In this document: positions 32,024 through 34,097 of the stretch, in pieces
Layout of the letters: the number at the start of each line of letters is the position of its first letter
How positions within the stretch are numbered: position 1 is the first letter of the stretch
Source: Thermoleophilia bacterium
Lineage (GTDB): Bacteria > Actinomycetota > Thermoleophilia > Gaiellales > Gaiellaceae
Assembly (NCBI GenBank): GCA_025936995.1
Contig: JAICSH010000004.1
Location: forward strand, 1-64,000
Direction of reading: 5' to 3'
Length of the DNA: 64,000 bases
Notes under the pieces: model-generated
What the model was told of the DNA's origin: nothing
The model's input: the letters and a program-made list of their open reading frames with translations, nothing else
Databases searched by the model: none
Program-made: the position numbers and the translations under genes

Positions 32024-32046
32024 AAACGGACAGTAGGTTGCGCGGC

Positions 32047-32715
32047 GTGCGTCTCATCGTCGCCCGCTGTGAGGTCACCTACACCGGCCGCGTCTCGGCC
32101 GTCCTGCCCGAGGCGGTGCGGCTGCTGATCCTGAAGGAGGACGGCTCGGTGCTCGTCCACGACGACGCCGGCGGGTACAAGCCTCTCAACTGGATGACGG
32201 CGCCGACGTTTCTCGCCGACGAGGGCGACCGACTCGTCGTCACGAAGCCGAAGAGCGACGACGTCCTCGAGATCCGCCTCCTCGAGGTGCTGAGCGACGT
32301 CGCGCACGACATGGGGGAATCGGTCGCGCTGCAGAAGGACGGCGTCGAGCGCGACCTGCAGGAGGCCCTCGCGGCGGCGCCCGAGGCGCTCGGCGAGCCG
32401 CTGACGCTCGTGCGGCGCGAGTGGCAGACGGAGATCGGTCCCGTCGACCTGATGTGCCGCGACGACGCGTCCGAGTGGGTCGCTGTCGAGGTGAAGCGGG
32501 TCGGGACGATCGAGGCGGTCGAGCAGCTCACGCGGTACCTCGACTTCATCCGCCGCGATCCCGCCAAGGCCGGCTGCCGCGGGATCCTCGTTGCGGAGCG
32601 CCTGAAGCCGCAGGCCGTCGCGCTCGCCGAGTCGCGGGGCGTGCGCTGCGTCGCCGTCGATCTTGCCGTCCTCCGCGGCGAGCGCGAGCCCGAGCTGACG
32701 CTCTTCGCGGCCTAG
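32047..32715 (+). CDS. nucS: Endonuclease NucS (EndoMS), mismatch repair
   Basis: A 222-residue restriction-like nuclease that cleaves mismatched DNA in bacteria lacking MutS/MutL. The N-terminal dimerisation domain (MRLIVARCEVTYTGR ... DGSVLVHDDAGGYKPLNWM) is followed by a catalytic core with D134 (GPVDLM), E148 and K150 (VEVKR) and QLTRYLDF. The C-terminus ELTLFAA resembles a beta-clamp-binding peptide. Start GTG32047. It shares CTAG (32712-32715) with the convergent RuBisCO-like gene. Confidence 0.95.
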   Translation: MRLIVARCEVTYTGRVSAVLPEAVRLLILKEDGSVLVHDDAGGYKPLNWMTAPTFLADEGDRLVVTKPKSDDVLEIRLLEVLSDVAHDMGESVALQKDGVERDLQEALAAAPEALGEPLTLVRREWQTEIGPVDLMCRDDASEWVAVEVKRVGTIEAVEQLTRYLDFIRRDPAKAGCRGILVAERLKPQAVALAESRGVRCVAVDLAVLRGEREPELTLFAA

Positions 32716-33656
32716 TCCGCCACGGCCTCCACGGCGGCAGCGACTCCGGCGCGCATACCGTCCGGGTGCGCATACGCGGCCGAGCCGAGGAGGAGCATGA
32801 CGCCGTCACGTGTGCCGGCCCGTTCGAGCTGCTCGCGTGCGTTCTCGGCGCCGACGCCGCCGCCGATCACGGCGGTCGCGGGCCGCGCCGCCGCGATCTG
32901 CTCCCGCACCTCGTCGTCCGTGTCGAAGGTACGCGGCGAGAAGGAGCCCACCTGGACGTAGTCGGCGCCGAGTAGCCGCGTCAGCTCCGCGAGGACGCGC
33001 GCGGAAACCGAGACCGGCCCACCGCGGCGGAGGAATGCCGAGCCCACGCGATGCACGAAGATCGGCAGGCCGTACTCGCGGAGCCGGCCGACCGAGCCGA
33101 GGCCCGCGACGAAGGCGTTGATCATCAGCGCCCGGGGGCCCGCCGCGACGATCGCATCCACGTCCGCCCCGGTGACGTTCGCGGCGTAGCGGACGTGCTC
33201 GGGGATCGCCGCATTGATCGCCCGCACGCGCTCGGGCGACGACCGCTGCAGCTCGTCGTCCTTGACGAGGCAGGCGCCGCCTGCAGCCAGCTCGGCCGCT
33301 ACCCCGTCTGCCTCCCCGGGCGACAACCCCTGCGCCGGCTTGACGATCGCTCCCACCGAGACGCCGGGCGAGGCCGTGAACGCAGGCCCCGGCAGCCCGT
33401 CCGGCCAGTCCACCCCGACGAGCCGGCAGAACTCCATGTCACCGCGATCCGCCCATTCGCCCGTAACACACGCCGCGAGCAGCTGCTCGGCGCTCGTCTC
33501 TCCGTCGAGCGCGGGGAAGTCGACGGTGACGCGCTCGCCGTCGACGTCCACCACGCGACCTTGCACATGCTCAGGGCCGTCCGGCAAGCTCACCGACTGG
33601 AGGATCGCGAGCGTCTCGCCCCAGGCCGGCGGCCGGATTTCGTAAACCGCACGCAT
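32712..33656 (-). CDS. RuBisCO-like protein (short, form IV-type)
   Basis: A 314-residue protein with the RuBisCO large-subunit TIM-barrel pattern. IVKPAQGLS has K106 at the catalytic-lysine position, and VKDDE (K132-D133-D134-E135) matches the carbamate and metal ligands. A HRVGSAFLR segment fits the next barrel strand. The loop-6 lysine region (GxVVGKLEG in true RuBisCO) is replaced by VQVGSFSPRTF, so CO2 fixation is unlikely. The N-terminal domain is truncated: total length is about 60-100 residues under typical family members. It may be an isomerase/enolase-type enzyme of sulfur or sugar metabolism; the true role is unknown. TACGAT lies 6 nt before ATG33656. Confidence 0.8.
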   Translation of the reverse strand: MRAVYEIRPPAWGETLAILQSVSLPDGPEHVQGRVVDVDGERVTVDFPALDGETSAEQLLAACVTGEWADRGDMEFCRLVGVDWPDGLPGPAFTASPGVSVGAIVKPAQGLSPGEADGVAAELAAGGACLVKDDELQRSSPERVRAINAAIPEHVRYAANVTGADVDAIVAAGPRALMINAFVAGLGSVGRLREYGLPIFVHRVGSAFLRRGGPVSVSARVLAELTRLLGADYVQVGSFSPRTFDTDDEVREQIAAARPATAVIGGGVGAENAREQLERAGTRDGVMLLLGSAAYAHPDGMRAGVAAAVEAVAD

Positions 33657-33698: not shown

Positions 33699-34016
33699 AT
33701 GGCTGTGAAGCTGCACCGTTGCCGGGGTCAGTTCGTGAAGATCAAGGGCCACCCGTGCTGGCGCGTCGAGAAGGCGCTCATCGACATGGGGGTCGAGTAC
33801 GAGCGCGTCCCGGGGCCGGGACCGAAGAGCAAGCGCACGACCGTCAGCGAGGGGACGGGCCAGCCGAAGTACCCCGCAATTCAGTTCGAGGACGGAAGCT
33901 GGTACCGCGAGGAGTCGAAGGACATGGAGCGGACGATCCGCGGCGGCGGCCTCATGGAGCGGGCCTCGAGCGGCGCCTCGGCGGGCGGCGGCGAGGAAAC
34001 CACCGAGCTACACTGA
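33699..34016 (+). CDS. Glutaredoxin/GST N-terminal-like protein
   Basis: A 105-residue protein with a thioredoxin-fold start (LHRCRGQFVKIKGHPCWRVE). The usual CxxC is spread as C-x8-HPC. EKALIDMGVEYERVPGPGP and YPAIQFEDGSWYREESKDM resemble the GST/glutaredoxin substrate-side strand and helix. The Ser/Gly-rich tail is disordered. ATG33699 has a GAGGGAGGA site. A role in thiol redox is inferred only from the fold. tRNA-Ala follows 8 nt after the stop. Confidence 0.72.
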   Translation: MAVKLHRCRGQFVKIKGHPCWRVEKALIDMGVEYERVPGPGPKSKRTTVSEGTGQPKYPAIQFEDGSWYREESKDMERTIRGGGLMERASSGASAGGGEETTELH

Positions 34017-34024
34017 GCCGCCCC

Positions 34025-34097
<73 letters not shown>

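Follow-up and report, generated by a model that had tools for sequence, protein, structure and literature searches.

The origin of RuBisCO is often discussed by way of its form IV relatives, the RuBisCO-like proteins (RLPs), few of which have an assigned reaction. The DeepYkr RLPs, which include the R. rubrum RLP, R. palustris RLP1 and the protein of PDB 3qfw, are 1,3-isomerases of 5-methylthioribulose-1-phosphate (MTRu-1-P) that yield 1-methylthio-xylulose/ribulose-5-phosphate (PMC5893883; PMC6302742). Other described groups are the MtnW/YkrW enolases of DK-MTP-1-P (PDB 2oek, 2zvi), the OiaX/NonPhoto RLPs (PDB 3nwr), proteins of ~420 aa with sugar-acid pathway neighbours, and the Photo RLPs of Chlorobaculum tepidum and R. 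palustris (RLP2; PDB 1ykw, 2qyg), of which R. palustris RLP2 takes no part in MTA metabolism (PMC5893883). Here we describe a compact RLP of uncultured actinobacteria which, judging by its gene neighbours and active-site residues, appears to serve not CO2 fixation but the recycling of a by-product of S-adenosylmethionine that contains sulfur. Its gene lies in a window of 64,000 nucleotides, the whole stretch of DNA that was analysed, together with two neighbours:

32712..33656, minus strand: compact RLP gene
32038..32715, plus strand: nucS (endonuclease NucS; PF01939/PF21003), tail to tail with the RLP gene with a 4-base overlap
33699..34016, plus strand: small GST-N/glutaredoxin-like protein (PF13409 at 1.1e-4, below cut-off; homologues in L086 and L097)

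The RLP reading frame runs over 314 codons from an ATG at 33656 to a stop at 32712. RuBisCO_large (PF00016) is the sole strong Pfam match of its product (6.2e-18; 65.5 bits against a cut-off of 30.1 bits), and solved RuBisCO and RLP structures match it at 8e-13 in a PDB search, which bears out the original prediction of a 314-residue RuBisCO-like protein. With the curated PF00016 cut-off exceeded and both the KxDE metal site and the equivalent of Lys175 in place, the protein belongs to the RuBisCO superfamily and is, as far as its sequence tells, a compact member of form IV type. Profiles and alignment were also checked for an unrelated TIM-barrel family and for KDDE residues lying off the RuBisCO metal site, and neither was found. 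The N-terminal domain is shortened as had been predicted, but the C-terminal helical extension is cut as well, and small size is shared with DeepYkr RLPs, which measure 336-378 aa in the examples seen. An AlphaFold model built from three sequences reached a mean pLDDT of 46.9, too low for a fold search or for active-site geometry; its one feature in agreement with a reduced N-domain of RuBisCO is the predicted order of the N-terminal elements.

Orthologues that are 73-88% identical occur in 4 of the 15 other genomes of the genus, so that the protein is present in 5/16 genomes, many of them incomplete, a pattern of patchy retention. For three of the four orthologues dN/dS is ~0.12-0.19 (dN 0.07-0.12 vs dS 0.61-0.72) and substitutions fall mostly at third codon positions; the RLP gene is therefore a real gene under purifying selection.

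Beyond the genus, about 20 compact RLPs are found in Actinomycetota, all of 303-349 aa except for a degenerate protein in genome G744. When an alignment of 11 members was run over the class, the phylum and one further order, further members scored 259-434 bits and every other RLP or RuBisCO at most 151 bits. A maximum likelihood tree with form I, form III, MtnW, Photo, NonPhoto/OiaX and DeepYkr references, those derived from the PDB being partial sequences, unites the compact proteins, including mtnA-adjacent ones from other families, in one clade on a long stem (SH-aLRT/UFBoot 100/100). This clade falls outside every sampled reference group, which supports the possible new compact clade that had been proposed. 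In AU tests a grouping with MtnW is rejected (p 0.032), and groupings with DeepYkr (p 0.214), Photo (0.284), NonPhoto (0.285) and form I/III (0.54) are not; the clade is distinct in the tree, and the tests are compatible with several placements of it. The branch is apparently undescribed: the open-access literature, to which our search was confined (subscription papers not being covered), yielded no description of it. Viral contigs contained no relatives of the compact RLPs, and a plasmid search returned only known RLPs and RuBisCOs, which then served as references.

The structure of RuBisCO defines which of its residues hold the C1 phosphate and which the C5 phosphate of the substrate. Transferred by alignment to the window protein, the active-site positions are as follows:

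33456..33458, minus strand: Glu67 codon (GEW motif), invariant in the 19 intact compact RLPs
33339..33341, minus strand: Lys106 codon (IVKP), equivalent of RuBisCO Lys175
33252..33263, minus strand: K132-D133-D134-E135, carbamylation and metal site (K201, D203 and E204 equivalents)
33048..33053, minus strand: His202-Arg203, equivalents of H294 and R295
32925..32957, minus strand: VQVGSFSPRTF, with Gln in place of H327 and loss of the loop-6 Lys334
32856..32864, minus strand: Gly265-267, equivalents of S379-G380-G381, with the C1-phosphate glycines kept and Ser379 lost
32784..32786, minus strand: Gly291, corresponding to the C1-phosphate glycine G403

The two segments singled out originally hold the residues expected of them: IVKPAQGLS carries the catalytic lysine as K106, and VKDDE the carbamate and metal ligands as K132, D134 and E135. 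In a MAFFT alignment every intact compact RLP keeps the equivalents of Lys175, Lys201, Asp203, Glu204, His294, G380 and G403, and all but one keep that of G381, as is likewise the case for Arg295. His327, Ser379 and the E60/T65/W66 segment, T65-W66 included, are missing from the clade, and Lys334 is lost in most members including the window protein, while several carry a lysine in that column. The replacement of the loop-6 lysine segment by VQVGSFSPRTF had been recognised correctly, with the refinement that loss of K334 is common to other form IV proteins. Retention of the C1-phosphate glycines together with loss of the residues for the C5 phosphate and CO2 (H327, K334, S379) fits a 1-monophosphate as the probable substrate of the compact RLPs.

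The retained metal site and Lys175, and the presence of a full-length RuBisCO of ~490-540 aa in some RLP-positive genomes, could be taken to indicate a true RuBisCO or another RuBP-using enzyme. Set against this are the losses just described, and the window protein itself, with Gln for H327, Arg for K334, Gly for S379 and no conserved 60-66 segment, departs from forms I-III at each of these positions; we regard such an activity as exceedingly improbable. A structural or regulatory pseudo-enzyme finds a precedent within the clade, since the G744 protein is devoid of catalytic residues. In the 19 intact members, by comparison, whose identity ranges down to 42%, 50 positions are invariant, among them all metal ligands (KDDE), Lys106, His202 and Glu67, which together with the low dN/dS makes a non-catalytic role very unlikely for the window protein. 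HMMER aligns Glu67 with RuBisCO Asn123, the position of Lys98 in MtnW; MAFFT shifts it by one column, so that a catalytic role for Glu67 is a suggestion only. The Photo RLPs also have a Glu at the Asn123 position (HMMER) and a similar form of the loop-6 segment, but they replace Arg295 with Phe, occupy a long separate branch and stand apart from the compact proteins in the maximum likelihood tree (1ykw, 2qyg), where an enforced grouping is not rejected (AU p 0.284).

Eight genomes from genera and families other than that of the window (G023, G648, G768, G763, G812, G845, G781 and G822) carry mtnA immediately behind the RLP gene and in the same orientation. The two genes overlap by 4-20 nt in seven of these, by 4 nt in G023, G648, G768, G845 and G822 and according to the called starts in G812 and G763, and are separated by an 11-nt gap in G781. 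All seven RLP-adjacent mtnA genes that were scanned exceed the TIGR00512 cut-off and match this model much better than that of ribose-1,5-bisphosphate isomerase. The next gene upstream of the RLP is often ahcY, and several genomes share the order ahcY, RLP, mtnA and then comF, hpf and secA where the contig reaches that far. Among the relatives tested, mtnA is found in 8/8 genomes that have an intact RLP and are at least 80% complete vs 7/14 RLP-negative ones (Fisher p 0.022, kinship not corrected). The original statement that no methionine-salvage genes are adjacent is accurate for the window locus but fails for these relatives; in the window's own genome, which is 70% complete, mtnA follows ahcY on contig C45, away from the RLP, and in this genus the two genes are unlinked, which counts against an action on the MtnA product. 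Nonetheless, the pairing in relatives and the presence of mtnA in the same genome speak against the implied lack of a salvage link and allow the class of substrate to be inferred. In G744 mtnA was not detected, and the RLP, kept near ahcY in that cluster (L088, 9313-10467), has lost the equivalents of Lys175, KDDE and His294. It may be a pseudo-enzyme or a decaying gene, and this joint loss we count in favour of a functional tie between RLP and MtnA.

The pairing also bears on an OiaX/NonPhoto-like function as (de)carboxylase or transcarboxylase of sugar acids. Scores against the NCBIfam equivalogs for OiaX, form III and MtnW are all far below the cut-offs, and the best of them, for OiaX (NF042437), is 69.2 bits vs a cut-off of 700 bits. 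The best profile match in the PDB is likewise a NonPhoto protein (3nwr, 104 bits), and the tree tolerates a NonPhoto grouping. Most NonPhoto members, however, keep H327 and K334 and so differ from the compact clade in their K334/H327/S379 pattern, and in place of apiose-type kinase or dehydrogenase neighbours there is the conserved pairing with mtnA. There is little, then, to recommend an OiaX-like reaction, and we give it as little weight as a non-catalytic role.

Another candidate is the DK-MTP-1-P enolase of classical methionine salvage, as in MtnW, with which the compact RLPs share the fold family, KDDE and a methionine-salvage context. Linkage to mtnA and weak scores of some clade members against TIGR03332 and NF007095 agree with it. 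Yet the clade reaches at most 139 bits vs a cut-off of 409 for NF007095 (23.4 bits for the window protein) and 113.5 vs 513.6 bits for TIGR03332, Lys98 of MtnW is not kept, and the tree grouping is rejected. Moreover, no hit to MtnB, the producer of the MtnW substrate, exceeded the cut-off in 14 RLP-positive genomes and six further ones, and none to MtnD, the consumer of the MtnW product, did so among the 14, in a scan from which G763, G812, G768, G845, G781 and G822 were left out; these relatives are draft genomes of up to 99% completeness. An MtnW-like function is accordingly improbable.

No class II aldolase (PF00596, to which both MtnB and the aldolase of the DHAP shunt belong) was detected in seven genomes that hold both RLP and mtnA and are 92-98% complete (G071, G135, G763, G812, G845, G781 and G822). 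This leaves the RLP as the only recognised enzyme there that could consume the MtnA product, the same position as that of the DeepYkr RLPs, and we therefore propose that the compact RLP takes the step following MtnA, with MTRu-1-P as substrate and most likely an isomerisation as reaction, a reading drawn from sequence, gene context and analogy to which we assign a probability of about 0.58. MtnA (S-methyl-5-thioribose-1-phosphate isomerase) would supply MTRu-1-P or 5-deoxyribulose-1-phosphate. A Mg2+ ion would be coordinated by carbamylated Lys132 together with Asp134 and Glu135. The one phosphate of the substrate, at C1 of MTRu-1-P or of its 5-deoxy analogue, would be bound by G266/G267 and G291, and enolisation would involve proton transfer by Lys106 and possibly by Glu67, which belongs to the N-terminal domain. 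Overall this would most probably amount to a 1,3-isomerisation to 1-methylthio-pentulose-5-phosphate, as with the R. rubrum and R. palustris RLPs of the DeepYkr group.

In three genomes, each of them with an RLP, a hit to MTA phosphorylase exceeds the cut-off, which speaks for this proposal. Two other findings on pathway content count against it. Several further RLP-positive genomes, among them G007 (95% complete) and G069 (90%), have no such hit, so that the source of MTR-1-P there is not evident. Many RLP-negative genomes of the same genus retain mtnA, and another sink for MTRu-1-P must therefore exist or have escaped recognition. Within the same family, G005, G009, G011, G012, G020, G033 and G095 carry mtnA, mostly after ahcY, with no RLP, MtnB or MtnD over cut-off.

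The compact RLPs presumably act after MtnA, as the DeepYkr RLPs do, and both lack the C5-phosphate residues, but the two differ in several respects. They are separate in the tree, although a sister constraint is not rejected (AU p 0.21). DeepYkr proteins have His at the E204 position (KDDH) in 3qfw, L217 and L218 and Asp in L219, whereas KDDE is found in 19/19 intact compact RLPs, which also keep Arg295 and have Glu67 instead of Asn. Neighbourhood checks revealed no cupin methylsulfurylase or transketolase gene adjoining the compact RLPs. On account of the metal-site residue and the tree we do not file the clade under DeepYkr. A PF01050 cupin gene near ahcY-mtnA was considered as a methylsulfurylase and is not supported, because it stands among sugar-nucleotide genes and occurs in RLP-negative genomes too.

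The same differences leave some room for other chemistry on the MtnA product, that is, isomerisation or elimination to another product, or use chiefly of 5-deoxyribulose-1-phosphate from 5'-deoxyadenosine. The genomic evidence for it is identical, and the distinct clade with its KDDE, Arg295 and invariant Glu67 and no adjacent cupin partner is compatible with it; but no known RLP behaves in this way and nothing specific indicates another product, and we consider it unlikely, though deserving of attention. The compact RLPs may be a new clade, not grouping with the known MTRu-1-P isomerases, that evolved or kept the processing of the MtnA product independently, with salvage of methylthio- or deoxy-sugars proceeding without MtnB, MtnD, a class II aldolase or an adjacent cupin or transketolase; we put this forward tentatively, at slightly less than even odds. 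A separate and widespread actinobacterial clade beside mtnA would tie the RuBisCO fold once more to the recycling of by-products of S-adenosylmethionine, and it suggests that MTRu-1-P chemistry either had more than one origin or is an ancestral trait of the family. The clade would also give an annotation to proteins for which NCBIfam and Pfam offer no name beyond RuBisCO large chain.

The nucS neighbour is conserved within the family, also in L086, L096, L097, L098, L090 and L092. nucS and an AlkZ-like gene were considered as functional partners of the RLP and rejected, because their conservation is limited to the family and their orientation is convergent or divergent. The small GST-N/glutaredoxin-like gene is divergent from the RLP gene in the window's genus and is directly followed by a tRNA-Ala (CGC) at 34025-34097; in G071 a related protein is encoded next to MTA phosphorylase (L179, 6635-9043), and a link to thiol handling is possible. 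Two plasmids hold DeepYkr-type genes in other arrangements. On an NT-25 plasmid (LR723679.1; L218, 1-4915) mtnK, mtnA, a split transketolase and a DeepYkr-type RLP annotated as 'transcriptional regulator' form one run, which suggests a transketolase, and not a cupin, as the enzyme that takes up an RLP product. On Vibrio nigripulchritudo plasmid NZ_AP027047.1 (L219, 2004-6623) a split transketolase, a DeepYkr-like RLP and an FGGY sugar kinase lie in one run, and in this RLP KEDD replaces KDDH.
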